A stretch of DNA of 64,000 bases from Rhizobiales bacterium GAS188 (lineage in GTDB: Bacteria > Pseudomonadota > Alphaproteobacteria > Rhizobiales > Beijerinckiaceae): assembly GCA_900104855.1 (NCBI GenBank), contig FNSS01000001.1, forward strand, positions 1,860,001-1,924,000, given 5' to 3'. The notes below the pieces were generated by a model. That model did not search any database and was not told the origin of the DNA. It was given only the letters and a program-made list of their open reading frames with translations. A program made the translations under genes and the position numbers. Numbering within the stretch: position 1 is the stretch's first letter; every line of letters begins with the position of its first letter. Shown in pieces: positions 3,051 to 25,043 of this stretch.

Positions 3051-4300
3051 TCAGAACTCTTCCCAACCATCGGCGTCGGGCGCAGCCTCGGCCTTGCGGA
3101 CAGCGGTTTCGCCGCGGCGGCTGGCCACGGCCCTGAGAGCCGGCTGAGGCTTGCCGGAAGACGGATTGACTGAAAACGGCTTGGCAGAACTCGAATTGGC
3201 GGCTCGGGCCCGCATCGGCTCGACTTTGTTGCTGCCCTTGCCGGCAGCCTGCGTGCTGAGCTGAAATTGCGAGACGAGTTGCACGAGCTCGTCCGATTCC
3301 TGGGCCAGCGCATGCGTCGCGGCGGTCGACTCTTCGGCCATCGCGGCGCTCTGCTGCGTGCCCTGATCCATCTGGTTGATGGCGGTGTTCACCTGCTGCA
3401 GCCCCGTCGCCTGCTCGCGCGCCCCGACCGCGATATCGGCGATCACCGTGTTCATCTCGGCGATCTGGGTCGCGATCCGCTCCAGCGCCTGACCGGCCTT
3501 GCCGACCAGGTCCACGCCCTGCTCGACCTGCGTGCTCGAGGTGGAGATCAGTGCCTTGATCTCCTTCGCCGCCTCGGCCGAACGCTGCGCCAGGGCGCGC
3601 ACTTCGGAAGCGACGACCGCGAAGCCGCGGCCCGCATCGCCGGCACGTGCCGCTTCAACGCCGGCATTCAAGGCGAGCAGGTTAGTCTGGAAGGCGATCT
3701 CGTCGATCACCCCGATGATCTGGCCGATCTGCTGCGAGGATTTCTCGATGCCGCCCATGGCTTTGATGGCCTCGCGCACCACCTCGCCGCTCTTCTCGGC
3801 ATCGGTCTTGGCGTTGGAGACCACTTCGCGCGCATGGGCCGCGCCCTCGGCGGTCTTCTTCACGGTGGCGGTGATCTCGTCGAGGGCCGCCGCCGTCTCT
3901 TCGAGGCTCGCCGCCTGCTGCTCGGTGCGCCGCGACATGTCGTCGGCGGCCCGCGAGATCTCCTCGGTGCCCGAGCCGATGCCCTTGGTGTTCGAAGCGA
4001 TGGTCAGCATGGTGTGCTGCAGCTTCTCGACCGAGCGGTTGAAATCGAGGCGCAGCTTGTCGACCTTGGCCTGGAAGGGGGTCTCGAGGCGGAAGGCAAG
4101 ATCGCCGCTCGCCAGATGCTCCATGCCCTCGCCGAGCGCATCGGTGGCGAATTGCAGCTGGCGTGCCTCCTCGGCCTTCTCGGCCTCATGGGCGGCGCGG
4201 GCTTCCTCCGCATGTCGGTGCGTCGTCCCGGCCTGCGCTTCGAGCCGCGTCTTCTCGATCGCCGCATCCTTGAACACCTGCACGGCCTGCGCCATGCGGC
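3051..4300. repeat. Copy A of receptor signalling-domain direct repeat
   Basis: The 3' part of the downstream receptor gene matches the equivalent part of the upstream receptor (copy B) at nearly every base, in the same orientation. At protein level, from [15 protein letters not shown] to the GWEEF end, only scattered substitutions and a variable linker near the C-terminus are seen. This suggests recent duplication or gene conversion. The outer limit near 4300 is approximate. Confidence 0.85.
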
Positions 4301-5069
4301 CGATCTCGTCGTCGCTGCGCATCGCCGGCAGCTCGACATCACTCTTACCTTCGGCGAGGGACACCATCGCCTGGCTCAGATCATTGAGACGACGCGACAG
4401 GCCGAGCACGACGACACAAGCAAGGCCTCCGATCGCGAGAAGGAAGCCGAGCCCGATGCCGGCCGAGACATAGATCCTCTGCCAGATCTGGGCGCTGACA
4501 TCGTCGATATAAACGCCGGTGCCCAGCACCCATTTCCAGGGCGCGAACCATTTGACGTAGGACAGCTTGGGCGAGGGATTGTCCAAGGCCGCGCCGGGCT
4601 TGGCGTATTGATATTCCACGAAGCCCGCGCCCTTGGCGACGGCCGTCTCGTGCATGGCCAACGAGAGGGGCCTGCCGTCCAAGGCAACGGTGTTCGAGAC
4701 GACCCCTTCCTGGTCGGGCCGAGCGCCGTGGACGATCGACGTCCCGACGTCGTCTTGAACGAAGAAATAGTCGTTGGTGTTGTAGCGCATGGCGCGCACG
4801 GCGGCCTTGGCGCGCAGCTGTGCCTCGGCTTCGCTGATCTTGCCGGCCTTGAATTCCTGATATTGCTGCTCGATGACCTTATTGGCCACCTCGGACACGG
4901 TCCTGAGCTGGTCGCGGCGCGCCGCATAGATCGCGTCCGCCCCCATCCAAGTCAGCGCGGTGACGACCGCGACCAGGGCGAATGCGAAGAGCGCGACGAT
5001 TGCTGCGAGACGCGAGCGGATCGTCTTGAAAACGCGCCGGCCGCCGGTCTTCTCATCGGGTTGCTTCAT
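3051..5069 (-). CDS. Methyl-accepting chemotaxis protein with single Cache sensor
   Basis: 672 residues. TM1 lies at about 19-39, followed by a periplasmic single-Cache domain ([25 protein letters not shown]), TM2 at about 200-225 and a HAMP region. A long coiled coil carries the MCP hairpin tip [38 protein letters not shown], here given only as the family landmark around residues 470-505. The protein ends in DADGWEEF, a xWxxF pentapeptide of the type that tethers CheR/CheB. Single-Cache receptors usually sense small organic acids; the ligand is unknown here. Its C-terminal half is almost identical to that of the upstream receptor. AAGGA lies upstream of the chosen ATG. Confidence 0.95.
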
Positions 5070-5122
5070 GACACGCGACTTTCCTTGTTAACGCAACACT
5101 TTCGGCAGTTGATCGGTCTGCC

Positions 5123-6365
5123 TCAGAACTCTTCCCAACCATCGGCGTCGGGCGCAGCCTCGGCCTTGCGGACAGCGGTTTCGCCGCGGCGGCCGGCCAC
5201 GGCCCTGAGAGCCGGCTGAGGCTTGGCGGAAGACGGCCTGACTGAAGACGGCTTGGCAGAACTCGAATTGGCGACTCGGGCCCGCATCGGCTCGACCTTG
5301 GTGGCACCTTTGCTGGTGGCGCCGGCCCCAAGCTGGAACTGCGAGACAAGTTGCACGAGCTCGTCCGATTCCTGGGCCAGCGAATGGGTCGCTGCGGTCG
5401 ACTCTTCGGCCATCGCGGCGCTCTGCTGCGTGCCCTGATCCATCTGGTTGATGGCGGTGTTCACCTGCTGCAGCCCCGTCGCCTGCTCACGCGCCCCGAC
5501 CGCGATATCGGCGATCACCGTGTTCATCTCGGCGATCTGGGTCGCAATCCGCTCCAGCGCCTGGCCCGCCTTGCCGACCAGGTCCACGCCCTGCTCGACC
5601 TGCGTGCTCGAGGTGGAGATCAGCGCCTTGATCTCCTTCGCCGCCTCGGCCGAGCGCTGCGCCAGGGCACGCACCTCGGAAGCCACCACCGCGAAGCCGC
5701 GGCCCGCATCGCCGGCACGTGCCGCTTCGACGCCGGCATTCAAGGCGAGCAGGTTGGTCTGGAAGGCGATCTCGTCGATCACCCCGATGATCTGGCCGAT
5801 CTGCTGCGAGGATTTCTCGATGCCGCCCATGGCCTTGATGGCCTCGCGCACCACCGCGCCGCTCTTCTCGGCATCGGTCTTGGCGTTGGAGACCACTTCG
5901 CGCGCATGGGCCGCGCCCTCGGCGGTCTTCTTCACGGTGGCGGTGATCTCGTCGAGGGCCGCGGCCGTCTCTTCGAGGCTCGCCGCCTGCTGCTCGGTGC
6001 GCCGCGACATGTCGTCGGCGGCCCGCGAGATCTCCTCGGTGCCCGAGCCGATGCCCTTGGTGCTCGAGGCGATGGTCAGCATGGTGTGCTGCAGCTTCTC
6101 GACCGAGCGGTTGAAATCGAGGCGCAGCTTGTCGACCTTGGCCTGGAAGGGGGTCTCGAGACGAATGGCGAGATCGCCGCTCGCGAGATGCTCCATGCCT
6201 TCGCCGAGCGCATCGGTGGCGAATTGCAGCTGGCGTGCCTCTTCGGCCTTCTCGGCCTCATGGGCGGCGCGGGCCTCCTCAGCCTGCCGGCGCGTGGTCT
6301 CGGCCTGCGCTTCGAGCCGCGTCTTCTCGACCGCCGCATCCTTGAACACCTGCACGGCTTCCGCC
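5123..6365. repeat. Copy B of receptor signalling-domain direct repeat
   Basis: Partner of copy A, about 2.07 kb apart start to start. The matching stretch covers the HAMP-distal linker, the methylation helices and the hairpin tip of both receptors. Direct repeats of this length can recombine, which would fuse the two receptors and delete about 2 kb. Confidence 0.85.
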
Positions 6366-7108
6366 ATGCGGCCGATCTCGTCCCGACGCCCCAAAGCCGG
6401 AACGGCGACGCGGTCATCCCCCTCCGCCAGCTTCTTCATCGCGCCCGTCATCTCCCGCACCGGTGCCGCGATGGTGCGCGACAACCACCAGCCGACCAGC
6501 AGCGACAGGATGAGGGCCGACAGGCCGCCCAAAATCAGAGCGAGCTGGGCGAAGCTCATCAGACGGTCCTGCTTGCCCTGAGCATCGGCCGACCAGGCGT
6601 CGATCTTGCCGCGTGTCTCGTTGACGAGCTCACGCACGGGCTTCATCAGCTCGCGGCCTCGCGGCGACTTGGCGAGCTGTGCGGCTTGATCGAGCGTCTG
6701 CGGATTGCGGGCAAGACGCATCTGAGGTTCGCCGATTTCCTGGCGCCAGAGATCGGCCGCGGCCACCAACTTGTTGATGAGCGTCAGTATCTCCGGATGA
6801 GTCGCGGCGTCCTTGCGAACGGCAGCCACGTTCTGCTCGTAATACTTCACGGCGTCGTCGTAGGCCTTCGAGGCCTGCTCGGCCTGGGTGCTGATATAAC
6901 CGCGCGAAGATGACGACTGGTCGAACAGAGCGCCGATGATGCGGTCGACCTCATAGGTGACGTTATTGGTGTCCGTGTTCAGGCGCGCAGCCGCATCGAG
7001 AGAGCTCAAGACGCCGAACAAGGCCGCGCACATGATCGCGACCGCGACGAGAACGCACGCGAAGCCGGCAGCGAGCTTGCGTGACACCGAAAGATTTGAG
7101 AGCGACAT
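5123..7108 (-). CDS. Methyl-accepting chemotaxis protein with helical (CHASE3-like) sensor
   Basis: 661 residues. TM1 is at about 12-34, followed by a mostly helical periplasmic domain (residues 40-190, with DQSSSSRGYISTQ resembling CHASE3 or four-helix-bundle sensors). TM2 lies at about 190-212, then a HAMP region and the same cytoplasmic signalling coiled coil as the next gene. It ends in the same GWEEF pentapeptide. It is the first gene of the six-gene chemotaxis operon. Only the sensor halves differ between the two receptors, so they probably feed different stimuli into the same array. The ligand is unknown. Confidence 0.94.
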   Translation of the reverse strand: MSLSNLSVSRKLAAGFACVLVAVAIMCAALFGVLSSLDAAARLNTDTNNVTYEVDRIIGALFDQSSSSRGYISTQAEQASKAYDDAVKYYEQNVAAVRKDAATHPEILTLINKLVAAADLWRQEIGEPQMRLARNPQTLDQAAQLAKSPRGRELMKPVRELVNETRGKIDAWSADAQGKQDRLMSFAQLALILGGLSALILSLLVGWWLSRTIAAPVREMTGAMKKLAEGDDRVAVPALGRRDEIGRMAEAVQVFKDAAVEKTRLEAQAETTRRQAEEARAAHEAEKAEEARQLQFATDALGEGMEHLASGDLAIRLETPFQAKVDKLRLDFNRSVEKLQHTMLTIASSTKGIGSGTEEISRAADDMSRRTEQQAASLEETAAALDEITATVKKTAEGAAHAREVVSNAKTDAEKSGAVVREAIKAMGGIEKSSQQIGQIIGVIDEIAFQTNLLALNAGVEAARAGDAGRGFAVVASEVRALAQRSAEAAKEIKALISTSSTQVEQGVDLVGKAGQALERIATQIAEMNTVIADIAVGAREQATGLQQVNTAINQMDQGTQQSAAMAEESTAATHSLAQESDELVQLVSQFQLGAGATSKGATKVEPMRARVANSSSAKPSSVRPSSAKPQPALRAVAGRRGETAVRKAEAAPDADGWEEF

Positions 7109-8161
7109 CTAAATCTCGCAAATGATCTGCCGCTTTCGAGGGAGCGGCTTGGGGGGTGGCAATCTCACGGCGCCCCGCATCGCGCTTGCGATGGGAGGTT
7201 CATGAATGCAGATGAAAGACGTGTGGAACTGACCCGCAAACACGGACGCGCATGTCGCCCCCTTGCTTCCGGACATGGCGCAGTCGGCAGGCTTTGTTCA
7301 ATCGGTCGGCATGGCGCTACCCCAGATACTCGGGAGGTCTGAAACGACATCCGGGGATTCGACCCGTATGACAGAACGGCATCATGCCTTTGAGTTAGCC
7401 GCCCCCTGCGGAACTACCCAATCTGCCATGAATAAAAGGTCTCACATTTCTGTTACTAAAAGATTAGCCTCACAACCTTTGCAGATCAGCCGAGATTGTC
7501 CAGTTGCGGGCGCCAGAAGGCCTGAGCGCAATGTGCCGCCCGGCGGCCGCGAAGCTGGCGAGACGGTGCGCTTGTCCAAGCTTTGGAGCGGCGAGCATTT
7601 GCCCATTGCTGACGCGGGCAAGGCGAGGCTTGAATTCGGAGACCAGCGCCTGCTTCGAAGCTACCGGGAAGGATTGAAAGCCGATAGGACGGAGATGCGC
7701 CGCGATCCGCCCCTAACCCGGGGCACGCATCCGAGAGCGGTCCCTGCCGATCGGGTAGGCGGCAAATCAACGATTTCTCGCAGGGCCGCGGCACGCAGCG
7801 ACGTGCCACATGACCGCGGCTTACGCCCGATCGCGTGCTTGGCCTACCCGAACGAGATCCCACCGATCTCGCCTCGTTGCGGCAATCCTGTCATCGCCGG
7901 AGGCTATCGCCATTGATAGGTCGAATGGCGGGCCCAATCCCGCGGACACTCTAAGGCCTCTCACCCGATATGGCCTCTCGCCCTTAAGAAAGCATGATCA
8001 TGCGGAGTTTTGCCACGGCTCAAGGAGGGCCGGCCGCACGCCTTCTGCAGCTCCGCTCCTCAGGAAATGCCGCTTCACGCGCGACAAATTGCCAGGGTCA
8101 GGAGCAGAAAGATGATGCTGCCGTTGACAATCGGCTCCGAGCGCCCCAAACAGCGCGCCGG
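7109..8161. other. Gene-free stretch upstream of the chemotaxis operon
   Basis: About 1.05 kb with no ORF that resembles a protein. The reading frames of 125-217 codons here are low-complexity and Arg/Pro-rich on both strands, as expected for chance frames in GC-rich DNA. 7400-7490 is AT-richer and may hold the chemotaxis operon promoter, but I see no confident -35/-10 or flagellar sigma pattern. It could also hide a small RNA. Confidence 0.5.
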
Positions 8162-8246
8162 GCCCAGGTGGCGGAATTGGTAGACGCGCTGGTTTCAGGT
8201 ACCAGTGGTGAAAGCCGTGGAGGTTCGAGTCCTCTCCTGGGCACCA
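8162..8246 (+). tRNA. tRNA-Leu(CAG)
   Basis: Class II tRNA with acceptor stem GCCCAGG (8162-8168) paired to CCTGGGC (8236-8242), discriminator A and an encoded CCA end (8244-8246). The anticodon stem CTGGT/ACCAG closes the loop TTCAGGT, giving anticodon CAG. A long variable arm follows, as expected for leucine, and the T arm contains GGTTCGAGTCC. Its last bases are repeated at 11170-11189, so its 3' end served as an integration site. Confidence 0.97.
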
Positions 8247-8248
8247 TC
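8229..8248. repeat. Putative attL, overlapping the tRNA-Leu 3' end
   Basis: 20-bp sequence covering the last 18 bases of the tRNA gene (T-arm 3' side, acceptor strand and CCA) plus two following bases. It is identical to 11170-11189. Confidence 0.78.
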
Positions 8249-8317
8249 TTTGCGGCAAGGAATAATCGCAATATCAAGAAGTTAGGGCTACCCGACAGGT
8301 ACAAACGGGTGGTCCAA

Positions 8318-8668
8318 ATGGTCCTTTGTATGAGCCGTCCCTTCAAGCACCCCGAGACGGGTGTCTACTATTTCCGTAAGGCCGTTCCTGATCATCTCCG
8401 CGAGGCCCTCGGCAAGCGTGAGGAGAAGCGGTCGCTGCGCACCAAGGAGCCCGCCGAGGCGCGCCGGAAGTTCGCTGCCGTTGCCTCTGAAGTCGAACGG
8501 CAATGGGCCACCCTGCGCTCTGACGCGGTATCCCTGACGCACAAGGAAGCCTACGCCCTTGCGGGTCGGTGGTATGGCTGGTTCGTCTCGCGCTTCGAGG
8601 ATGACCCCGGCAGCCAGATAGAAGCCTGTGAGGGATGGAGTGGGCGTCTCGCCGAAATGCCGCGTTAG
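8318..8668 (+). pseudogene. Truncated site-specific integrase (DUF6538-like N-terminus)
   Basis: About 116 codons from ATG 8318 (or ATG 8330). The protein opens with SRPFKHPETGVYYFRKAVPDHLR and EKRSLRTKEPAEARR, the N-terminal DNA-contacting region of phage-type tyrosine recombinases that carry a DUF6538 domain. Homology fades near 8620 and the frame stops at 8668. The catalytic domain with its Arg-His-Arg-Tyr residues is absent from all frames downstream. It begins 72 bases after tRNA-Leu, the usual place for an integrase that uses the tRNA end as its site. It is therefore a remnant and not expected to recombine. Confidence 0.75.
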
Positions 8669-8951
8669 GCTATCAGCGCGTCCACGGGATTGGCGGCAGG
8701 CCGGAGGGAGGGATGAGCAGTGCGGAACAGGCGACTCAGCTTCAGCCTATCGGCAGCCGTCTTGCGCTCGATCTGTTGCCAGTCAGAGGTCGAGAAGGCG
8801 CGGCGGTCGCACAGAAGGTAACCCTATAGCTTGAGCGACTGGTTTGGGTGGAAGGCGCCCGGCCCCTTTTAGGAGCAATTTAGCAAAAGCGGACATCGCT
8901 GAGTTAGGCGCGCGCGGGGTAGCTCCGGAAGTGGCAGGCAGCACTCCTTTC

Positions 8952-10094
8952 TCAGCCATCTCGCGGACCGGCGACGAGTCGCGCGGTCAACGGCACCAGG
9001 CACAGCAATGCCGCGACCATCCAGAAGGCGGCATGCAGTCCCACGGCCTTCGAGACGAAACCTATGGCGGCCGGTCCGACGAGGATGCCTGCATAGCCGG
9101 TCGTCGTGATCGCGCCGATTGCAAGCGCCGATGGCATCGTCTTTTGCGATCCGGCGTTGCGGAAGAGAACGGGCACGATGTTGGACGCCCCCAACCCGAT
9201 CAACAGGAAGCCCGCCATCGCAACCGCTGCCAGCGGCGCCGTCAGAAGCAGGACGAAGCCGGCGATGGCGAGGGTGCCGCCCCAGAACAGGGTGCTGCGA
9301 TCCCCGGTGCGCGCGGTGATCCTGTCGCCCACAAGACGCCCCGCCGTCATGGCGACTGCGAAGAACATGTAGCCGACGCCGCCCTTGGTCGCGGTGACGA
9401 GGCCGGCATCGGTGATGAGGAGAGCGCTCCAGTCGAGGATCGCGCCCTCGGCGAGGAAGCTCGCGGCCGCCAGACCCGCAAGCAGCAGTACGATGCCGCG
9501 TGGCATCACGAACAGCAGTCCTCTTTCCCCTTGTGCGCCTGTCATCAGGCGAGGCCATGCGAGCGCCATCGCCGCCATCATGATGGCCGAACAGAACAAG
9601 GTTCCCCCCAGCGGAGCCACGCTAAGCGACAGCAGGAAGGTCATCAGCGTCGAGCCTGCAAATCCGCCGATGCTGAAAAGCGCATGGAAGCCCGACATCA
9701 GCGGCTTGTCGGCCGCGCGCTCGACCTCGACCGCATGCACGTTCATGGCGACATCGATCGAGCCCAACGATGCCCCGAACGCGAGAAGAGCGAGCGCGAC
9801 GGTCGTCGGTGTCGCGGCGACGGATAGGACAGGGAGGATGACGGCAAGCCCGAACCCGCCCGCCAGGATGACGGGCTTGCTCCCGTAGCGCGAACTCAGC
9901 GGCCCGGTGAGCAGCATGGCTACGACCGAACCAATGCCGATGCACAGCAGCAGCAGCCCGAGCGTTCCATCATCGACGGCGAGGCGCTGCTTGGCGAAAG
10001 GCACCAGTGGCGCCCAGCAGGCAATGCCGAAGCCTGCGACGAGGAAGGACAGGCGCGTGGCGAGCCGTGTCGCCGGACGATCGGACGAGACCAT
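8952..10094 (-). CDS. MFS transporter, YbjJ-like
   Basis: 380 residues from the ATG at 10094 (an upstream frame extension is Arg/Pro-rich and unlikely). About 12 hydrophobic segments are visible. Landmarks are the loop GPLSSRYGSKPVILAGG after TM2, LGSIDVAMNVHAVEVER, and MSGFHALFSIGGFAG, a set typical of the YbjJ branch of the major facilitator superfamily, whose substrates are mostly unknown and may be sugars or related solutes. It lies 49 bases after the DeoR gene on the same strand, so the pair is probably one operon controlled by that regulator. It is cargo of the tRNA-bounded element. Confidence 0.85.
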   Translation of the reverse strand: MVSSDRPATRLATRLSFLVAGFGIACWAPLVPFAKQRLAVDDGTLGLLLLCIGIGSVVAMLLTGPLSSRYGSKPVILAGGFGLAVILPVLSVAATPTTVALALLAFGASLGSIDVAMNVHAVEVERAADKPLMSGFHALFSIGGFAGSTLMTFLLSLSVAPLGGTLFCSAIMMAAMALAWPRLMTGAQGERGLLFVMPRGIVLLLAGLAAASFLAEGAILDWSALLITDAGLVTATKGGVGYMFFAVAMTAGRLVGDRITARTGDRSTLFWGGTLAIAGFVLLLTAPLAAVAMAGFLLIGLGASNIVPVLFRNAGSQKTMPSALAIGAITTTGYAGILVGPAAIGFVSKAVGLHAAFWMVAALLCLVPLTARLVAGPRDG

Positions 10095-10143
10095 GGATGC
10101 GGTACCGATCAGAGTGCGAATTGCCGGGGCGCGGACGCGCGGA

Positions 10144-10920
10144 TCAGGCGGGGGATTTGCCCGCCACGATGTCGACGCCGAGCCGCGTGATCGCCTCGAA
10201 CTCGGAATGGGTGGCAGCATCATGTTCGACCACTAGGCTGTCGATATGATCGAGTGGGGTCACGCGATGCGGTGCGCCCGTCCCGAGCTTGTCGTTGGTC
10301 ACCATCATCACAATCCGACGGCTACACGTCAGCAGGACGCGCTTGAACGCCGCGTCCGCTGGATCGAAGGCGGACACCCCCTCGACTACCGACGCCGAGC
10401 AGGCACCGAGAAAACAGCGGTCGACGTTCATTTGCTGGACGGCGAGAACGGCAGTGGCATCGACGCTGCCCCCGATCTCCGCGTCGACCAGACCACCCAC
10501 CAGATGGAGCCGAAGGTCGAGCCGATCCGCCAGCATGGCCGCAATGGCAACCGAGTTGGTGGCTATGGTCAGTTCGAGGCTCGGCAGTACCTCGGCTAGG
10601 GCCAGATTGGTGCTGCCATTGTCGAGGAACACGAACTCGCCCGGGCGGATCAATCCGACCGCCGCTGCGGCCAGCGCGGCCTTGCGCTCGCGCGCCTCCC
10701 CGACGCGGACAGTTATCGGCAATGAGGCCGGTAAGATGGGAAGCGCGCCCCCGTAGACGCGCCGGCAGCGGCCTTCCGCCGCCAAGGCGCGAAGGTCGCG
10801 GCGAATAGCGTCAGGTGAGACCGAAAACTCTTCGGCGAGCGAGCCGGCCGTGACCGACTGCCCCTGTGCGAGACGCCCCGCGATGATGTCACGGCGTTCC
10901 ATGGGAGGATCGATTGTCAT
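10144..10920 (-). CDS. DeoR/GlpR-family transcriptional regulator
   Basis: 258 residues. The N-terminal winged helix (residues about 8-62) shows SVTAGSLAEEFSVSPDAIRRDL and the conserved wing CRRVYGGA. The C-terminal DeoR sensor domain carries the phosphosugar-binding landmarks FLDNGSTNLALAEVLP and the later GACSASVVEGVSAFD and ND residues. Members usually repress sugar-metabolism genes and respond to a phosphorylated sugar. No Shine-Dalgarno is seen before the ATG at 10920, so the message may be leaderless or start at a later codon. Four C(A/G)TGCA boxes lie directly upstream. Confidence 0.9.
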   Translation of the reverse strand: MTIDPPMERRDIIAGRLAQGQSVTAGSLAEEFSVSPDAIRRDLRALAAEGRCRRVYGGALPILPASLPITVRVGEARERKAALAAAAVGLIRPGEFVFLDNGSTNLALAEVLPSLELTIATNSVAIAAMLADRLDLRLHLVGGLVDAEIGGSVDATAVLAVQQMNVDRCFLGACSASVVEGVSAFDPADAAFKRVLLTCSRRIVMMVTNDKLGTGAPHRVTPLDHIDSLVVEHDAATHSEFEAITRLGVDIVAGKSPA

Positions 10921-10924
10921 GAAT

Positions 10925-10963
10925 CATGCAATACCATGCATCATCGTGCATTACAATCGTGCA
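10925..10963. promoter_or_regulatory. Phased C(A/G)TGCA repeats upstream of the DeoR gene
   Basis: The hexamer CATGCA or CGTGCA occurs at 10925, 10935, 10945 and 10958. The first three are exactly 10 bp apart, one helical turn, so they face the same side of the DNA. DeoR proteins commonly bind such repeats. The array starts 4 bp upstream of the start codon, which fits autorepression of the regulator-transporter operon. Confidence 0.6.
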
Positions 10964-11169
10964 CGGTGATGGTAAGATTCCCTGACGAGCGGTAGCGAGC
11001 GCTAGTCTGACGAACTCGACGATGTGTCATCTGGAGAAGCATTTCGGAAACCCGCCCCTGTCGGACCAATCGGTAGCTCGACACTGGCACGACAGACTGG
11101 TACAAAGGGGAGGTCGTTGGGTTAGTCTAACTCATTGATATTGCATGTCGATCCAGGTCGGACGACCCC

Positions 11170-11189
11170 GTCCTCTCCTGGGCACCATC
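11170..11189. repeat. Putative attR, copy of the tRNA-Leu 3' end
   Basis: Perfect 20-bp match to 8229-8248, in direct orientation, without the rest of the tRNA. The bases just upstream do not match the tRNA T arm, so only the integration core is duplicated. Confidence 0.75.
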
Positions 11190-11323
11190 ATGACGCCAAG
11201 GCGTTGATGGGCGCGCGCCCTCGCGCATTCGCCTTTGGCCGCTGGTTTGGGCGAGAGCGAGCGCGCCGCCGATCAAGAAGCACGCGCAAGCAATGCCGCT
11301 CGACCGAACCGCACGCGCGGCCC

Positions 11324-12025
11324 TCAGATGAGGCCGGAGCCAATATTGATCGTGAGCGCCAGGATCGTCGTGTTGAAGAAGAAGGATATCACCCCATGAA
11401 TGAGCGTGACGACGCGCATGGGGCCTGAGGTCGTCTCGACATCGGCCGTCTGCGATGCGCAGCCGATCACGAAGGAATAATAGAGGAAGTCGATATAAGC
11501 CGGTTGCCGCGTTGCCGGAAAGCGAAGCCCGCCGCGCGCATCCTCAGGCAAAGCCCTTTCCGCTTCCCGCTCGACGAAAAATTCATGGGCATAGTGCTGC
11601 GCGAAGATCAGGTGGATGAAACTCCAGGCGCTGAAGATCGTGGCGATCGCCAGACCGAGATGCAGGGCTTTGAGATAGCCCTGCGCATCCTTTACGGCTC
11701 CGAGCTGAGCGAAGATGGCGGCGAGACTCGCGATCGCCGCCACAATAGCGAGCGTCAGCACGATGAAGCGGCTCTCGTCGGTGCGCACGGCATGGCGGCG
11801 AATGGTGGTCGCGGTCGCGGTCGTCATCATCCAGGTCGCGAGCCCGATATAGAGCCAGGTGCCGAGATTCCAGGCCAGCAATATGCGCGTGGAGAGATGC
11901 CACAGCGTCGGCATGAGGGCGTAGGCGAGAATGCCGATCAGGACCGAGGCGAGCAATCTCGGCCGCGCGAAGACATGCACCAGATAGCGGTTGCGCAACC
12001 AGAACGAGCCGGCTTCTTTCGTCAT
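11324..12025 (-). CDS. DUF1345 family inner-membrane protein
   Basis: 233 residues from the ATG at 12025. Five or six membrane segments are visible, among them LASVLIGILAYALMP, WLYIGLATWMM, FIVLTLAIVAAIASLAAIF and a C-terminal TLIHGVISFFFNTTILALTINI. The motif YIDFLYYSFVIGCASQTADVE and the closing helix are characteristic of DUF1345 proteins, whose function is not known. It is on the same strand as the next upstream porin gene but separated by about 150 bases. No regulator is adjacent. Confidence 0.88.
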   Translation of the reverse strand: MTKEAGSFWLRNRYLVHVFARPRLLASVLIGILAYALMPTLWHLSTRILLAWNLGTWLYIGLATWMMTTATATTIRRHAVRTDESRFIVLTLAIVAAIASLAAIFAQLGAVKDAQGYLKALHLGLAIATIFSAWSFIHLIFAQHYAHEFFVEREAERALPEDARGGLRFPATRQPAYIDFLYYSFVIGCASQTADVETTSGPMRVVTLIHGVISFFFNTTILALTINIGSGLI

Positions 12026-18047: not shown

Positions 18048-19541
18048 TCAGGCGCGAATGACAAGCGTGTCGAGCACCCGGCTCAGATCGTCCTGGTGCT
18101 CGAGATCCCACAGACAAGCAAGTGCCCGCGCGACCTTGTCCTCCTGCAAGCGCTTCGCCACGTTCTTGCGGAACTTCGCCTCGAAATCCGCTCGCTGCAT
18201 CGGCATCCCCCGAAAGCCCGGAAGGGCCTCGACCTGGCAGGAGATCGTCGGGCCGCCGCTCAGGGTGGCACTGACCCTGTTCGGAAGGGCTTTCGGCGAC
18301 AAGGCGGTCAGAGCGTCATCCGGCTTGACGGTGATCTTGCGCATGAGCGCGCGGACTTTGGGGTCGCGGATCGCGCTCGGAGAGTAGCTGTCATTGGTGA
18401 TGTCGCCGTCGAGCATGGCACGCGCGACGATGAAGGGCAGGCTATGGTCCGCCGTCTCCTTCGTTTCGGGTGCCCATTTTTCGGGCTCCTTGCCCGCCGT
18501 CAGATAGGCGAACTTCGTCGTCGCGATCTCGATCGATGCGATCTGATCCAAATCTCCTGCCTCCTTCGCGACCCTTACGGCCGCCGGTATGGCGGTGAGC
18601 GCCCCGCCTTGGGCAGGGTATAATTTGATGCCGCAGTCCTTGATGCGGAAGCTCCCTGACCGGCCACCGAACTGATCCGTGTCGAGCTCGAAGGGCCCCG
18701 ACACTTGCTTGAAGACGCCCGCATTGCCCTCGAAGATCGGGGACGGGCCTGTCATGCCGCGGCGCGCCAGGAGAGCCGCGAAGACGCCATTGCGGGCCGC
18801 ATCCGCGTCGGCGATGCCTTTCCAGTCGGACAGCACCTGCATGCGCGTCTGATTCATGGCGATATGACCGTTGATCGCGAGATTGACCGCCTCGACCAGC
18901 TGCGCCGGCGCGAGCCGCATCAGCTTGCCGGCAGCGAGCGCTGAGGCCGGCAAGCTGTAGATCGGGTGGTCCCAGCCACGGCTCGTGAGTTCCGCGGCGT
19001 CCATCAAACGGCAATCGATCTCGTAAGCAATGACCATGGCCAGGATCAGGTCGCGTCCGTTGCAGCCTTCGGCCTCGGCCACCGCCAGGCAGGCCGTCAT
19101 ATTGTCGCTCGGATGGCCCGGCTCGCGCCCGACATAGACGTCGTTCATGTCGTAGTAGCGAAAAGCGGCACCATTGGCGAAGGCGGCGAGGTCCGGTGTC
19201 GTCCGTCTTGCGGTGCCGATGACGGTGGATACGCCGCCGGAGACGGCGAGGGCGACCTCCCGGCAGGCCCGGACCGGAGCCTCCTCATGAGCCGCGATGC
19301 CGCAACCAATGGCATCGACGAGGTGCGACTTCGCGGCCTCGATGGTGGCCTCGTCCAGATCCTTGTAGTCGATCGTCGCGACATATCGGCTGAGCCGCTC
19401 GGCGATATTTTGCTTCGGCATTTGCTGTCCTTGATCGCTGCCGCCGGCGGCGGGAGCCGCCAGGATGGCTTGCCCCCAAGCCGGCGACGCGGCTGCGCCG
19501 ATGGCCGCGAGAACCAGACGCCGATCGATCGATCTTGCCAT
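18048..19541 (-). CDS. MmgE/PrpD family protein with N-terminal export signal
   Basis: 497 residues from ATG 19541. The body from about residue 45 is an MmgE/PrpD fold: SHLVDAIGCGIAAHEEAPV, FANGAAFRYYDMNDVY, GHPSDNMTACLAVAEA, and a PAQGGALTAIPAAV segment. The family contains 2-methylcitrate dehydratase and cis-aconitate decarboxylase, normally cytosolic. Here the first 33 residues read MARSIDRRLVLAAIGAAAS with a twin Arg and a hydrophobic run, which resembles a Tat signal. A start at MPKQNIAERL (19421) would give a cytosolic form. It lies 99 bases after the IclR gene, so it probably belongs to the catabolic cluster. Confidence 0.85.
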   Translation of the reverse strand: MARSIDRRLVLAAIGAAASPAWGQAILAAPAAGGSDQGQQMPKQNIAERLSRYVATIDYKDLDEATIEAAKSHLVDAIGCGIAAHEEAPVRACREVALAVSGGVSTVIGTARRTTPDLAAFANGAAFRYYDMNDVYVGREPGHPSDNMTACLAVAEAEGCNGRDLILAMVIAYEIDCRLMDAAELTSRGWDHPIYSLPASALAAGKLMRLAPAQLVEAVNLAINGHIAMNQTRMQVLSDWKGIADADAARNGVFAALLARRGMTGPSPIFEGNAGVFKQVSGPFELDTDQFGGRSGSFRIKDCGIKLYPAQGGALTAIPAAVRVAKEAGDLDQIASIEIATTKFAYLTAGKEPEKWAPETKETADHSLPFIVARAMLDGDITNDSYSPSAIRDPKVRALMRKITVKPDDALTALSPKALPNRVSATLSGGPTISCQVEALPGFRGMPMQRADFEAKFRKNVAKRLQEDKVARALACLWDLEHQDDLSRVLDTLVIRA

Positions 19542-19640
19542 GTCGCGCTCCTTCAATCCCTGGTTTCCACTGCGCCTGCACGCCTCGATCCGCATGACTG
19601 AGATGCCAGCGTGTGCATTTTCGATCTCATGCCGGCAGCG

Positions 19641-20450
19641 TCATCCGCACGGCTTGCGCGCCGCCACGACGAAACCGTCCCAAGACAGCGCCGCTCCGAT
19701 CTCGGCAGCGGCACGCTGCAAGGGCTTCAGGTAGCGCTTCGGAATGTCGGTCGGGTCCATGAAGCGGGTGCTGCAGATGACATTGAGGGCAGCGACCGAC
19801 TGGCCGGCGACTGTTACCGCAACCGCAATGGTCGAGGCCCGGATGAAGGTGAAGCTTTCACCGCGCGTGGCAAAGCCTTGGTGGCGCGTCGCGTCGAGCA
19901 ATCTGCGCGTCAATTCAGCGTCGCGAGCCGCCGCATCGAGCTTGCGCTCGGAACGCGCCAGCGCGGCGAGGATTCGCGCTTGCTGCTCACTCGACGCGAA
20001 GGCCAGGAACGCCCTGCCGAAATCACTCTCGAGCATCGGCAGGCCGGCCGTGTTGATGGGATCGCTGATGGTGATGGGGGCAGTCGGTCGCGTCGTGTAA
20101 CGGATCGTCATGCCCCGGCCTTCGAAGATCGCGAAATCCGATGGCCAGTGGATCGCCTGTGACAGACGGTCGATCACGGGAACCGCCACTTCATGGATCC
20201 AGGCCTGAGACGATACACCGGCGCTGAGAACATGAACTTTCGAGGAAGGGCGGTAGCCGGCCGCACCGTCGCGCTGCACATAGCCGGCGGCGCGCAAGGT
20301 CGCGAGCAGGCGGGAGATCGTCGGCTTCGGCAGCCCGGTCAAGGCATGAAGGTCCCGGATCTGCAACGGATAGGCTTCGTTGAGCAGGCGCAGCAGCTCG
20401 AGGCCTCGCGTGAGCGTTCCCGTGGCACTGGTTTCGGCAGATCCGACCAT
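19641..20450 (-). CDS. IclR-family transcriptional regulator
   Basis: 269 residues from ATG 20450; the frame stays open upstream but the extra residues are unlike the family. The N-terminal winged helix reads GLELLRLLNEAYPLQIRDLHALTGLPKPTISRLLATL, landmarks near residues 15-50. The C-terminal IclR effector domain has SQAIHWPSDFAIFEG, PMLESDFGRAFLAF and a final AVAVTVAGQSVAALNVICS. IclR proteins act as repressors or activators of aromatic or organic-acid catabolism. It sits inside the cluster it probably controls. A palindrome at 24831-24845 is its likely target. Confidence 0.92.
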   Translation of the reverse strand: MVGSAETSATGTLTRGLELLRLLNEAYPLQIRDLHALTGLPKPTISRLLATLRAAGYVQRDGAAGYRPSSKVHVLSAGVSSQAWIHEVAVPVIDRLSQAIHWPSDFAIFEGRGMTIRYTTRPTAPITISDPINTAGLPMLESDFGRAFLAFASSEQQARILAALARSERKLDAAARDAELTRRLLDATRHQGFATRGESFTFIRASTIAVAVTVAGQSVAALNVICSTRFMDPTDIPKRYLKPLQRAAAEIGAALSWDGFVVAARKPCG

Positions 20451-20684
20451 GTGAATGCCGCTGTCCGGCGTCTCCCTCCTTGAGCCGCAATCGGCGGTAG
20501 CGCCCATCGAGGAGGCCCGCTCCTGCTGGAGCGCCCGTTCCTTGGGCCATCCCCTCGACGCACCACCATCCGGCACAGCGAACCGAATAGCAGCACCATC
20601 TCGTGGCGCGAAGCGAGGCTGCACCCGCTGCTCCAATTCAAGGCGCTCCGTCATGCATCCGTCGCGCCCCTGGTGCCGCCATGC

Positions 20685-21611
20685 TCAGCCATGTCCGTGC
20701 CCGGTGCGGCGCGTTCCCTTTTGGCGCGACGCACCGAGGCGAGACTCGTTGTGGAGAGACTCCTGGGATGCCAGCACAAGCGCGTCCCGCGCCTTGGCCG
20801 CGATGGCCTGGTCAACGAAAGTGCCGTCATCGAGTATGAGAGAGCCTCTTCCATTGGCGTTCGCCTCGGCATAGGCGGCGAGAATGGCCCGCGCCCGCGC
20901 GATCTCGTCCGTCCCACGGGTGAACGCCGCGTTGACGATCGGTATCTGCGAAGGATGGATGCAGGAGCGCCCGTAGAAGCCGAGGGCGCGATCCTCGGCG
21001 CAGGCGAGGCGCAATCCCTCGATATCCTTGATCGGCGTGAAGACATGCGCCACCGGCGGCTCGAGCCGCAGGAAACGCGAGCGCGCCACCAGTCGCATGC
21101 GCGCATACAGCGTCTCGCTGCGCGACGGCGTCGCCTCGGCCCGGATGTCACGCACGAAATCCCCCGCCCCGAAAGCAAAGCGCCTGATCCTCGCAGACGC
21201 CGCGGCGATCTCGGCCAAGCCATAGAGCCCAACGGTCGTCTCGATCAGCGGCTGGATGAGCACGCTGCCGGGCGGCCGTGTTTCGGCCCTCTCCATCGCG
21301 GCAAGCGTCTCGTCGATGCGCGAGACGAGAAGCGGGTCTTCGGCCTTCGGCAGGAGGACGCCGGACAAGCCGCGCACCGTGAGTCCAGCGAGGTCCGCAA
21401 GTGCTGCGTCCGCAGCGTTCAGCCGCACGAAGATCGCGACCGGCGGCAAGGATTTGAGGACAACCGACACCGCTTGGCGGGCCACCTTCTTCTCGGTCGC
21501 CGGCACCGCGTCCTCGAGATCCTGTATCACGACGTCGGCGCCGCTCGCGAGGGCCTTGCCGAAGAGGTCGGGACGGTTGCCCGGGACATAGAGATACGAC
21601 CTGATCGGCAT
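20685..21611 (-). CDS. HpcH/HpaI (CitE-like) CoA-ester lyase
   Basis: 308 residues. A CitE-type TIM barrel: RSYLYVPGNRPDLFGKALASGADVVIQDLEDAV opens it (around residues 4-36), with the metal ligands Glu in LIETTVGLYGL and Asp in FGAGDFVRDI. RSCIHPSQIPIVNAAF is the conserved CoA-binding end. Family members cleave citramalyl-CoA, malyl-CoA or related thioesters to acetyl-CoA and a keto acid. It follows the CoA-transferase by 1 base, so the two are very likely cotranslated and act in sequence. The C-terminal 20 residues are basic and poorly conserved. Confidence 0.88.
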   Translation of the reverse strand: MPIRSYLYVPGNRPDLFGKALASGADVVIQDLEDAVPATEKKVARQAVSVVLKSLPPVAIFVRLNAADAALADLAGLTVRGLSGVLLPKAEDPLLVSRIDETLAAMERAETRPPGSVLIQPLIETTVGLYGLAEIAAASARIRRFAFGAGDFVRDIRAEATPSRSETLYARMRLVARSRFLRLEPPVAHVFTPIKDIEGLRLACAEDRALGFYGRSCIHPSQIPIVNAAFTRGTDEIARARAILAAYAEANANGRGSLILDDGTFVDQAIAAKARDALVLASQESLHNESRLGASRQKGTRRTGHGHG

Positions 21612-21612
21612 G

Positions 21613-22803
21613 TCAGATCGCGCCTACGCTCTTCATGGCGGCGATCTCGGTATCGTTCATGCCGAGCTCGCCCTTGAACACCTCATCATTGTCGGCGCCG
21701 AGCGGGCGCCCGGTCCAGCGGATCGCGCCTGCCGTGTCGGACATGCGGAACATGACGTTCTGCATGCGCACCGGACCGAGCTCGGGATCGTCGACGGTGG
21801 TGATCGTGTCGAGCGCCCGATATTGCGGATCCTCGAAGATATCCGCGATGTCATAGACGGGCGCGAGCGCGGCCTGCGCCGCCTCGAAGGCTTGCACCAC
21901 CTGCGTCATCGGGCGAGCCCGGATCCACTCCGCGACCTTGGCGTCGAGCGCCTCGACATGCTGCAGCCGTCCCGACGCGGAAGCAAACCAGGGCTCCTCG
22001 ACCACCTCGGGCCAGCCGACGAGGCGCATGACCCGGGCAGCGATGGAGGTCGAGGATGTCGACACCGCGACCCATTTGCCGTCGGCCGTCATATAGGTGT
22101 TGCGCGGCGCGTTCTTGTCGGAGCGATTGCCGGTGCGGCGCTGGATCCGCCCGAGGCGATCATAAGTGATGGCCTGCGAGCCGAGAACCGCCATGATCGG
22201 CTCGATCAGAGCGAGATCGATGACCTGACCCTTGCCGGTGCGGCGGCGCGCATTCACCGCCATCATGACGGCGAGCGCCCCGGCGATTCCCGCGATGCCG
22301 TCGGCGAGGCCGAAGGGCGGCAAGGTCGGCGGACCATCCGGCTGGCCGGTGATGGCGGCAAAGCCGCTCATTGCCTCGGCGATCGTGCCGAAGCCCGGGC
22401 GTTGGGCGTAGGGGCCGTGCTGGCCGAAGGCGGTGACCCGCAGAAGGATCAAGCCCGGATTATCGCTAGCGAGCTCGTCGTAGCCGAGGCCCCATCTCTC
22501 GAGCGTGCCGGGACGAAAATTCTCGACGATGATATCGGCTTGGCGCGCCAGCTTGCGGAACACCGCCTGGCCCTCAGCGCTGCCGAGATAGAGCGTTATG
22601 GCGCGCTTGTTGCGCCCGATGACCTTCCACCAGAGCGATACGCCGTCGAGCGAAGGTCCGTGCGTGCGCGAATTATCTCCGTTCGGGTGCTCGATCTTCA
22701 GCACCTCGGCGTCGTAATCGCCGAGCAGCATCGCGGCGACCGGCCCCGCGAACAGGGTCGCGACGTCGATCACCTTGAGACCGGCGCATGGTCCTTCGTT
22801 CAC
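21613..22803 (-). CDS. CaiB/BaiF family CoA-transferase
   Basis: 396 residues from a GTG at 22803, supported by AAGGAG 7 bases upstream; longer upstream frames are shadows of the HD gene. Family III CoA-transferase: GLKVIDVATLFAGPVAAMLLGDYDAEVLKIEHP at the N-terminus (residues about 7-39), the catalytic Asp in PGLILLRVTAFGQHG-to-GLADGIAG region, and NFRPGTLERWGL. It transfers CoA between carboxylic acids, here probably activating the substrate for the adjacent lyase. It is coupled to the CitE-like gene downstream. Confidence 0.9.
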   Translation of the reverse strand: MNEGPCAGLKVIDVATLFAGPVAAMLLGDYDAEVLKIEHPNGDNSRTHGPSLDGVSLWWKVIGRNKRAITLYLGSAEGQAVFRKLARQADIIVENFRPGTLERWGLGYDELASDNPGLILLRVTAFGQHGPYAQRPGFGTIAEAMSGFAAITGQPDGPPTLPPFGLADGIAGIAGALAVMMAVNARRRTGKGQVIDLALIEPIMAVLGSQAITYDRLGRIQRRTGNRSDKNAPRNTYMTADGKWVAVSTSSTSIAARVMRLVGWPEVVEEPWFASASGRLQHVEALDAKVAEWIRARPMTQVVQAFEAAQAALAPVYDIADIFEDPQYRALDTITTVDDPELGPVRMQNVMFRMSDTAGAIRWTGRPLGADNDEVFKGELGMNDTEIAAMKSVGAI

Positions 22804-22841
22804 TGTTGTACTCCTTGAAAAACCGGAAGAGCGCGGGCCGG

Positions 22842-23429
22842 CTAGCGCCAATGCCGCTGGTAGTAGGGCGTCACGCCTTCGCGCATGCAGGCATGGTCTG
22901 TCGCGAAGAAATCCGCATAATGCAGGACATAAGCCTCGAAGCTGCTGCCGTGGAACGGCGCGTTCGACGCATGGGTCGCGACGGTACTGACGACGAGATG
23001 CGGGAAGCCGAGCTCCTTGAGCAGCATGGCGCCGACCACGCCATGCGGCAGCTCCTTGGCGAGCCTGGAATAGCTGACCATGCCGCCGTCGCGCACATAT
23101 AGCAGCGGCTTGTCGACATCGTGCATCGTGAGAATGGAGACGAGCGCGTCGAAATCGAGCCTCTCGCCCCATTCCTGCGCGGCCCGGCGCGCCAGGTCGA
23201 TGCCGGTGCGCGTCACCTCGTTGATGTGCTGCTTGAGCTGATAGCTTTGGGCGAGCGGCGAATACGGCATGTCGTCCAGCGCCTCGTAGGGGCTCGACAT
23301 CCACGAGCTCACCCAACCGGTCACGATCCGCTCTCGCACCGGCGGCGATACGAGATCGAGCCCTGCGAGCCAAGCTTCCACTTGCGCGCGGCGTTCGCCG
23401 TCACCCCGATGAATCGCGTATGGGCTCAT
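22842..23429 (-). CDS. HD-domain hydrolase
   Basis: 195 residues. The HD-superfamily metal ligands are visible as QLKQHINEVTRTG, TMHDVDKPLLY (the HD pair), PHGVVGAMLLKELGFPHLVVSTVATHA and HYADFFATD. HD proteins are metal-dependent phosphohydrolases, but some family members inside catabolic operons act on other substrates, so the reaction cannot be named. Its ATG overlaps the MFS stop by 4 bases (ATGA) and it is 38 bases ahead of the CaiB gene, which places it firmly in the operon. Confidence 0.82.
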   Translation of the reverse strand: MSPYAIHRGDGERRAQVEAWLAGLDLVSPPVRERIVTGWVSSWMSSPYEALDDMPYSPLAQSYQLKQHINEVTRTGIDLARRAAQEWGERLDFDALVSILTMHDVDKPLLYVRDGGMVSYSRLAKELPHGVVGAMLLKELGFPHLVVSTVATHASNAPFHGSSFEAYVLHYADFFATDHACMREGVTPYYQRHWR

Positions 23430-24718
23430 TCGATGCTCACTCCTTTGGTTTCGGGGGCAAAGAGCAGCACGATGATCGCCAGCACGAAGGCGAGCGTCGT
23501 GGTCAGCATGCCGGCCTGGAACCCCTGCTCGCTGGTGGCCAGGAGCCCGATCAGATAGGGCGCAATCAGACCACCAACCCTTCCGCCATTGTAGGCGATG
23601 GCCATGCCTAGCGCCCGCGACCGGGTCGAGCGGATCAGCTCGGCCGTGAACGGGCCCATTCCGGCGAAGATTCCGCCGATTCCGAAGCCCGTGAAGAAGC
23701 TCGCCGCCAACAAGAAGCCCGGCGAGGACGCCAGCGCGAAGACCGCGATCGCGGCTGCCCCGATCAAGAGGAAGAGCGCGAAGGTCGGGCGGCGTCCGAG
23801 CCGATCCACAAGGGCAGCGAAAACGAGGAAACCTGCGAGCGATCCGATCTGCTGGATCAAGGTGAAGCCGAGGCTCTTGACGAAATCGAGATGCTTGACC
23901 GCGACGAGGAAGGTCGGCGTCCAGGAGAACACCGCCCAGTAGATGTATTGCACGAAGAAGATGAAGGCGAACGCGATCAGGAGGCCGCGCCCCGTGCCGC
24001 CGCGAAACAGCTCGCGGATGCCGGCCGGTGCAGCCTTATCGCCGCTGCGACGTAGCCAAACCGGAGATTCCGGCGTGCGCCACGCGACGAGCCATATCAC
24101 CACGATCGGCAAGCCGCCTGCCGCATAGACCCAACGCCAGGCGCCGGCCTCGAGCCCATCTGCGAGTGCCGAGATTCCGGCCACCACCGCAATCGCCAGC
24201 ATCGAACCGAGCGGCAGGCCCATCTGCATCAAGGCACCGCCCTTGCCGCGATGTTGCGGGTGCCAGCTCTCGGCAACCAGCGAGGCGCCCGCCGTCCAGG
24301 CTCCGCCCATGCCGAGGCCGCCCAGCAGCCGCAAGGCAAGCAAGGCATTCAATGAATTCGCGAATACGATGGCGCCGGTGAACACAGAATAGACGAGGAT
24401 CGTCAGATGCAGCGTGCGGACCCGGCCGATGCGGTCGGCCACCCATCCGAACAGGATGCCGCCGAGGATGGCGCCCGTCGCGGACACGCTGGTGATCAAG
24501 CCGGCATCGGCGCGCGACAGCTCGAAGACGACGATCAGCGCGGGTGTGGTCAGCGCCAGTATGTAGAGATCGAAGACCTCGAAGAGCCAGCCGAGCCCAG
24601 CTGCGAGGAGGCTGCGCCAGGCATCCGGCGTGACCTCGCGATACCAGGGCAGACGCGTCTCGCCGGCCGCTGCACGGATGCCGATCGAACTGTGATGTCG
24701 GCTTGCTGCTGCATACAC
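23426..24718 (-). CDS. MFS transporter, aromatic/organic-acid:H+ symporter type
   Basis: About 430 residues with 12 membrane segments. It carries WLFEVFDLYILALTTPAL in TM1, the loop GWVADRIGRVRTLHLTIL after TM2, RLLGGLGMGGAW and AESWHPQHRGKGGALMQMG, and a second FAALVDRLGRRPTFALFLL loop. These match the acid:proton symporters related to sialate and benzoate transporters. The GTG at 24718 is the only good-length start in frame, but the GGGAGG motif is only 3 bases away, so the exact start is uncertain. As first gene of the minus-strand cluster it probably imports the substrate. Confidence 0.85.
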   Translation of the reverse strand: MYAAASRHHSSIGIRAAAGETRLPWYREVTPDAWRSLLAAGLGWLFEVFDLYILALTTPALIVVFELSRADAGLITSVSATGAILGGILFGWVADRIGRVRTLHLTILVYSVFTGAIVFANSLNALLALRLLGGLGMGGAWTAGASLVAESWHPQHRGKGGALMQMGLPLGSMLAIAVVAGISALADGLEAGAWRWVYAAGGLPIVVIWLVAWRTPESPVWLRRSGDKAAPAGIRELFRGGTGRGLLIAFAFIFFVQYIYWAVFSWTPTFLVAVKHLDFVKSLGFTLIQQIGSLAGFLVFAALVDRLGRRPTFALFLLIGAAAIAVFALASSPGFLLAASFFTGFGIGGIFAGMGPFTAELIRSTRSRALGMAIAYNGGRVGGLIAPYLIGLLATSEQGFQAGMLTTTLAFVLAIIVLLFAPETKGVSIE

Positions 24719-25043
24719 GATCCTCCCTGCCGGTGCTCTTTTTGGGAGCACGGCAGTCCCGCGGCCCCGAAAACTCGGCGGTGGATGTCTTCCACCCGCG
24801 AGGCCATCGGGGAAGCGATATCGGGCAGCGTTTCGATAATCGAAATGCAGAGCCCGACGAGAACGGGCGCGATGGACCGATTGTCCCGCTGACTCGGCCG
24901 GGTGCTGCCACATCACCATCGGCGCCGCCGGACACAAGGCCGTGAGTTGGCACGCATCCGGGAAGGCATGACCTCGTGTGCGCCCGCTCCGATTGCGTCG
25001 CCGCCGGGACGGCTCTAGCAACGAAGCTCGACCCACAGAGGAC
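24719..25043. other. Divergent promoter region of the catabolic cluster
   Basis: 325 bases between the leftward transporter operon and the rightward NIPSNAP gene. It contains a palindrome at 24831-24845 and a small hairpin GTGCTC/GAGCAC (24733-24751) in the transporter leader. No ORF is convincing. Confidence 0.55.
24831..24845. promoter_or_regulatory. Candidate IclR-family operator
   Basis: TTTCGATAATCGAAA is a perfect 7-bp inverted repeat around a single A. It closely resembles the known PcaR box GTTCGATAATCGCAC of Pseudomonas, an IclR-family operator. It lies between the divergent MFS and NIPSNAP genes, and an IclR regulator is encoded in the same cluster. Confidence 0.65.

Follow-up and report, generated by a model that had tools for sequence, protein, structure and literature searches.

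A tRNA-Leu(CAG) island of Rhizobiales bacterium GAS188 with a shortened DUF6538 integrase and a deoR-MFS gene pair

The DNA analysed here, referred to as the window, is a stretch of 64,000 nucleotides from Rhizobiales bacterium GAS188 (contig FNSS01000001.1, positions 1,860,001 to 1,924,000). Its segment 8229-11189 is very probably an element which a tyrosine recombinase integrated at the 3' end of the gene for tRNA-Leu(CAG) and whose recombinase activity is lost. An earlier note on this DNA had described the segment as such a relic, and this reading is supported by a unique repeat, by the homology of an integrase stub, by arm-like motifs at both ends and by full-length islands in relatives. 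The segment represents a compact and well-bounded case of a tRNA island after the loss of its integrase, with complete-looking ends around a single gene pair.

Tyrosine recombinases are known to integrate at tRNA ends. The sequence GTCCTCTCCTGGGCACCATC forms a perfect direct repeat of 20 bp at 8229-8248 and 11170-11189, with a spacing of 2,941 bp. This is the repeat from the tRNA-Leu(CAG) 3' end that the earlier note had given, and both its position and its uniqueness are confirmed. With up to three mismatches allowed it matches two places of the window only, and no match appeared in 100 shuffles. The whole source genome (9,090,457 bp) contains two exact copies, both at this locus, so that the scatter over many unrelated sites which the earlier note had named as speaking against its claim is not found. 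A chance repeat was rejected on these counts and because the arm and inner motifs described below are correctly placed.

A frame which starts with the ATG at 8318, 72 bases past the tRNA, and ends with a stop at 8668 encodes the integrase stub that had been claimed for this place. Pfam assigns it to DUF6538 (E 1.5e-19, scanned from 8330) and to no other family at E <= 0.001. The stub has matches in 19 of 60 relatives (E <= 0.001). Four of the best of them are open frames of 525-593 amino acids, in which DUF6538 is followed by a match to the catalytic Phage_integrase family, although two of these four full integrases score below the Phage_integrase cut-off. The stub corresponds to the first ~95-100 residues of the full integrases. 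A profile search with full integrases sets the end of homology at 8617, and a translated search of 8100-11400 with the four full integrases gave nothing past 8608 better than E 0.21. A hidden catalytic remnant between the repeats was rejected since this search recovered the N-terminal part only; the catalytic domain is absent from the stub and was not found in 8100-11400. In a search of 397 genomes of the order, an integrase frame of 559 amino acids in G394 came closest to the stub (65% identity over the stub). Judged by its sequence, the element is a defective derivative of the integrative elements with DUF6538 tyrosine recombinases and not an active member of this group. A text search for DUF6538 in open-licence PMC articles (other literature was not searched) found no paper.

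The family was sampled with 248 genomes. The full-integrase profile has matches in 81 of them at E <= 1e-20. At 23 of the 29 new loci returned by this search a tRNA gene lies within ~1.5 kb, and at 10 it is tRNA-Leu(CAG), a target that recurs in this integrase group. Downstream of the tRNA 38 loci were examined, some of them full-length hits and others DUF6538 hits with a short frame; at the short-frame loci the tRNA used is perhaps not that of the element. At 15 of the 38 loci the 17-nucleotide tRNA end recurs (at most one mismatch) at a distance of 2.9-49.3 kb, the copy of the window being the nearest. Of the other 23, 16 have a tRNA whose end does not recur within the fetched range, and seven lack a tRNA on the examined strand. 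DUF6538 is borne by all 14 two-copy elements besides the window, in G103 with 26.7 bits at a cut-off of 27.

The earlier note had proposed to look for a larger island with a full DUF6538 integrase at the same tRNA, and such islands could indeed be identified in G016 (49.3 kb), G018 (6.9 kb), G061 (6.2 kb), G103 (9.8 kb), G219 (18.4 kb) and G244 (11.1 kb). These islands from the same bacterial family share the tRNA target and the end layout with the element of the window and differ from it by their full-length integrase and their size of 6.2-49.3 kb. Where MFS-protein matches are listed for these genomes, they sit elsewhere. As a separate observation, G226:C34, G211:C1, G255:C1 and G247:C23 each carry a pair of full tRNA-Leu(CAG)-like copies in the same orientation, at a distance of 0.6-12.5 kb.

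Putative recombination sites could be recognised at both ends of the element. The string GGTACAAA at 8298 and 11099 has its sole two copies in the window there, both on the plus strand and none on the minus strand. On the left it lies in a stretch of two tandem arm-like motifs, AGGTACAAACGG and GTGGTCCAAATGG, and on the right in a single one, ACTGGTACAAA. Between arm and core lies GCAATATCAA, which has one direct copy in the window at the left end and one inverted copy at the right end (TTGATATTGC on the plus strand). This inner motif of TTGAT type resembles the IHF consensus and may be an IHF site.

For each element, nucleotides 21-110 after the tRNA were compared with the 130 nucleotides inside the second repeat copy. 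In the 15 elements the longest shared strings, which are mostly GTGGTACAAA-like, are found between +49 and +77 at the left end and between -57 and -79 at the right end. The string lengths of the elements' own pairs sum to 161, compared to a mean of 108.8 for random pairing, and none of 20,000 random pairings reaches 161. A motif model was derived from 12 other elements, with the window held out and G244 and G269 removed as near copies of G219 and G025. It locates the right arm of the window at -75 and the TTGAT-type inner motif at -37. Neither the arm score nor the summed score of this end is reached by any of 127,619 other window positions, a count that skips positions within 60 bp of the real core and uses sites from an earlier model run; in an earlier run without the 60-bp exclusion 9 of 42,580 positions score as high. 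Three two-copy elements that were added later (G394, G529 and G381) also show arms by eye and by the model. G381 has two second repeat copies, of which the one at 35,060 has no arm that is visible by eye, and in G482 the contig stops before any second repeat copy. Since arms and inner motifs match at both ends of the window's element, both recombination ends appear to survive and look complete. An element's own arm string just inside each end thus offers a simple check for the ends of DUF6538 islands.

Table 1. Features of the element in the window
Feature	Position	Strand	Basis
tRNA-Leu(CAG), presumed integration target; 3' end is the core repeat	8162-8246	+	ARAGORN
Core repeat, left copy (18 nucleotides of the tRNA plus 2)	8229-8248	+	exact match
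IHF-like motif GCAATATCAA, left end	8268-8277	+	sequence; IHF assignment inferred
Tandem pair of arm-like motifs AGGTACAAACGG, GTGGTCCAAATGG, which overlaps with the probable start of the integrase	8297-8321	+	comparison with other elements
Integrase stub, 116 amino acids, N-terminal DUF6538 domain only	8318-8668	+	Pfam; full-integrase homology stops near 8608-8617
Element DNA between stub homology and cargo, no match among fetched loci	8618-8932	.	nucleotide and six-frame search
Cargo unit	8933-10991	-	nucleotide identity to Bradyrhizobium sp. S69
MFS transporter, 380 amino acids	8952-10094	-	Pfam MFS_1
DeoR/GlpR-type regulator, 258 amino acids, upstream of the MFS gene and in the same orientation	10144-10920	-	Pfam DeoRC and HTH_DeoR
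Right arm-like motif ACTGGTACAAA, 75 nucleotides ahead of the 17-nucleotide core	11096-11106	+	motif model
Inverted IHF-like motif, TTGATATTGC on the plus strand	11135-11144	-	motif model
Core repeat, right copy	11170-11189	+	exact match

The locus was compared with three congeners (G001, G002 and G003). On the left the synteny with all three stops at 1,856,344-1,856,353 of the source genome (G000), and on the right it resumes at window position 25,049 for G001 and 24,993 for G002, near a NIPSNAP gene and rplU. Right of the tRNA G001 has 1.9 kb at this place, by eye an ABC transporter pair, and G002 has 1.7 kb. Compared to the congeners the source genome thus has a surplus of ~11.8 kb on the left side of the tRNA and of 16.8 kb on its right side, and the 2.94-kb element is the tRNA-adjoining part of a larger variable region. 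The late return of synteny would fit a true island which extends to ~25 kb, with the distal repeat copy as the border of two tandem elements. Tandem arrays do occur, as in G018, where a second DUF6538-like integrase remnant lies right behind the second repeat copy (L215, about 7831-8139). However, the best integrase match right of 11189 (E 0.035 at 24569-24736) is taken as chance, and other repeat-like places in the first 30 kb need 5-6 mismatches in 20, the one on the right on the plus strand, at 22477, needing six. The source genome is also about twice the size of the congener genomes, and its surplus at this locus includes DNA on the left of the tRNA, so that no second element is needed to account for the extra genes. 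We therefore regard a tandem arrangement as unlikely.

The congeners also gave a positive answer, with a caveat, to the call of the earlier note for an empty site. Each of the three has one exact copy of the 17-nucleotide tRNA end, in addition to one match with two mismatches on another contig, and in none of them does the MFS protein find a match (E <= 0.001). A single repeat copy without the MFS gene is thus observed, but a precise empty site is not. The earlier note had also considered that relatives might all carry the deoR-MFS pair at this locus without the distal repeat, which is not the case in these congeners.

Several observations weigh against an integrated element with intact ends. 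No clean empty site could be found, and the DNA behind the tRNA in G001 and G002 differs from that after 11189; since the DNA after 11189 is extra as well, the joint before insertion cannot be shown, and the contig of G003 ends just past the tRNA. The composition around the element shows no anomaly by eye. An arm's own partner is the best or equal-best match in only 11 of the 15 elements. The shared string of the window (8 nucleotides) is weak if taken singly, as 24 of 200 shuffles reach its length, and the same holds for G174 (37/200), G232 (11/200) and G027 (9/200). The inner-motif score alone is reached by 119 of the 127,619 window positions. An arm string common to both ends of each element thus appears as a strong feature of the set and as a weak one singly for some members. 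Finally, a structure model of the stub (mean predicted local distance difference test, pLDDT, 83; predicted template modelling score, pTM, 0.58) gave no match to PDB folds at E <= 0.001 and so lends no support to arm binding.

The question which part of the integrase tracks the arms was addressed with 16 full-length elements, near copies kept, while G027 and the window, which lacks a catalytic part, were not included. The more identical the DUF6538 parts are, the more alike are the arms (rank r 0.55, reached in 4 of 2,000 permutations), and the catalytic part shows no such correlation (rank r 0.13, reached in 464 of 2,000). When each part is controlled for the other, r is 0.54 for DUF6538 (2/2,000) and -0.03 for the catalytic part (1,057/2,000). 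Arms chosen by the motif model alone were the same arms and gave r 0.55 (3/2,000), and without the near copies G244 and G269 r is 0.50 (8/2,000). If G103, G199 and G198, which have the most divergent arms, are left out too, r falls to 0.27 (149/2,000), so that the link between arms and DUF6538 rests partly on those three. The element of G394, the nearest relative of the stub, is located at tRNA-Ser, yet its arms are similar. These correlations suggest that DUF6538 binds the arm sites, and the arm comparison points to arm-site recognition as a possible role for what is still named a domain of unknown function. It would be a bold step further, and one we consider doubtful, to propose that DUF6538 reads the arm sites for a large group of integrases and that the stub still does so, occupying the paired arms over its own start, preventing recombination at either end and thereby locking the minimal cargo island at the tRNA. 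Small stub-bearing islands such as those of the window and of G027 at tRNA-Phe would then stay in place until the cell acquires an intact DUF6538 integrase of their arm type.

Beside the stub only a regulator and a transporter had been noted, and the genes for the MFS transporter and the DeoR-type regulator are in fact the only other ones recognised by Pfam between the repeat copies. Conjugation genes were not recognised in 8229-11189 by the Pfam scan. Presumably the DeoR-type regulator controls the MFS transporter, as can be supposed at the level of the families, and to call the cargo "sugar-type" is likewise a guess at family level. Neither protein has an NCBIfam match above cut-off, and the MFS protein has no sequence relative in the PDB at E <= 1. 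The PDB sequence relative of the DeoR protein is the deoxyribose operon repressor 7l6l (E 5.9e-5). Upstream of deoR, at 10921-10991, repeated TGCA-containing words are possibly operators; this stretch is partly kept in Bradyrhizobium sp. S69 without deoR.

In S69 the nucleotide identity is 92% for 8933-10133 and 88% for 10935-10991. The deoR gene between these two parts is absent from S69, and the MFS locus of 13 kb contains no tRNA. A match to the MFS protein is found in 76 of the 248 family genomes including the source (E <= 0.001). At least 26 of 109 fetched MFS loci have a DeoR homologue immediately upstream in the same orientation, most family loci being ~4 kb long. The 21 of these 26 loci that were checked contain neither a tRNA nor a match to DUF6538 integrases, and the most widespread family among the genes around the pair, frames overlapping the pair excepted, is shown in 6 of the 21. 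These loci and S69 indicate that the pair travels independently of the element, which is its carrier here. They would also fit a gene pair that came by other means next to a repeat which is a chance or non-functional duplication. This is hardly credible, however, with a repeat that is unique and with arm and inner motifs at the expected positions. Nucleotide and six-frame searches of the fetched loci for the origin of 8600-8935 and 10985-11169 yielded nothing at E <= 0.01. In a plasmid search with 100 records, the 20 that were listed match the deoR-MFS part or the tRNA only.

According to the integration reading, a DUF6538-type integrase would have used core sites in the tRNA 3' end and arm sites which were brought near by a bend at each end. 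The circular form would have been joined to the tRNA and would have left the tRNA gene whole; comparison shows this anatomy, and the reaction is inferred. The integrase gene now consists of no more than its first ~100 codons, which hold DUF6538. We favour the view that the rest of a larger element was lost by deletion, as the somewhat more probable course. Its main rival is a small element, either a satellite or a mobilizable mini-element, that formed elsewhere and came with an integrase acting in trans. The ends, which look complete while the integrase is cut, agree with an arrival in small form, as does another element, in G027 at tRNA-Phe (G027:C10, L219 about 3825-9083), which likewise has two repeat copies and a cut DUF6538 integrase. 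That element measures 5.2 kb and contains a DUF6538-only frame of 172 amino acids, and it shows that such cut pieces recur. Two genes adjoin its cut integrase, of which the second is ATPase-like by eye. On the other hand, the class is not abundant in the sample, as a tRNA together with a second repeat copy was seen within the fetched range at just two of 15 short-frame DUF6538 loci (the window and G027). At E <= 0.01 the stub itself is the only DUF6538 match of the source genome, so that no second match that could stand for a helper integrase was seen in this search, which was limited to the DUF6538 family. An arrival in small form is thus possible, and we give it clearly less weight than loss by deletion. 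The element is probably immobile today. As both ends are kept, it could in principle be moved by a matching DUF6538 integrase in trans or by a related element inserting alongside.

The element resembles a cis-mobilizable element (CIME). Passages of PMC7563491 and PMC5704250 describe CIMEs as decayed by deletion, with att sites retained, recombination and transfer genes lost and cargo carried; classical CIMEs measure 1.2-13 kb, and 10 CIMEs with carbohydrate-metabolism genes are mentioned. The element of the window seems to share these features. The 20-bp cores together with the arm and inner motifs at both ends would correspond to a retained attL and attR, and of recombination and transfer genes only the DUF6538 domain is left beside the MFS and DeoR genes. 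In contrast to the CIMEs of the families of integrative and conjugative elements (ICE) and integrative and mobilizable elements (IME), it was not seen in tandem with a functional element, its integrase is of the DUF6538 type, and none of the genes recognised in it points to an ICE or IME as its parent. In ICEMlSymR7A of Mesorhizobium with its integrase IntS, five arm-type motifs with the consensus TGKTGGTATC are reported in the 283-bp attP in a passage of PMC11963761. The integrase gene of ICEMlSymR7A lies directly after attL. This position and the presence of arm-type motifs are common to ICEMlSymR7A and the element of the window, whereas the former is an active ICE of 502 kb with another arm sequence. 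The order of core, bend site and arm at the ends follows the layout of lambda, whose integrase, as part of PMC4880445 explains, uses core sites and arm-type sites bound by its N-terminal domain, with sites for IHF and other bending proteins between them. For the window the arm and IHF roles are read from the sequence only, and unlike lambda its target is a tRNA.

The extra DNA left of the tRNA corresponds to window -3656 to 8120 (G000:C1:1856345-1868120) and is absent from this place in the three congeners. Farther right, 18048-25045 on the minus strand encodes MmgE/PrpD, an IclR regulator, an HpcH/HpaI-type lyase, a CoA-transferase of family III, one more protein and an MFS transporter, a cluster which is not found at this place in G001 and G002. 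Two tandem genes on the minus strand at 3051-5069 and 5123-7108 resemble methyl-accepting chemotaxis proteins by eye, and the 95% identity of their 3' 1,260 bases suggests a recent duplication or gene conversion.

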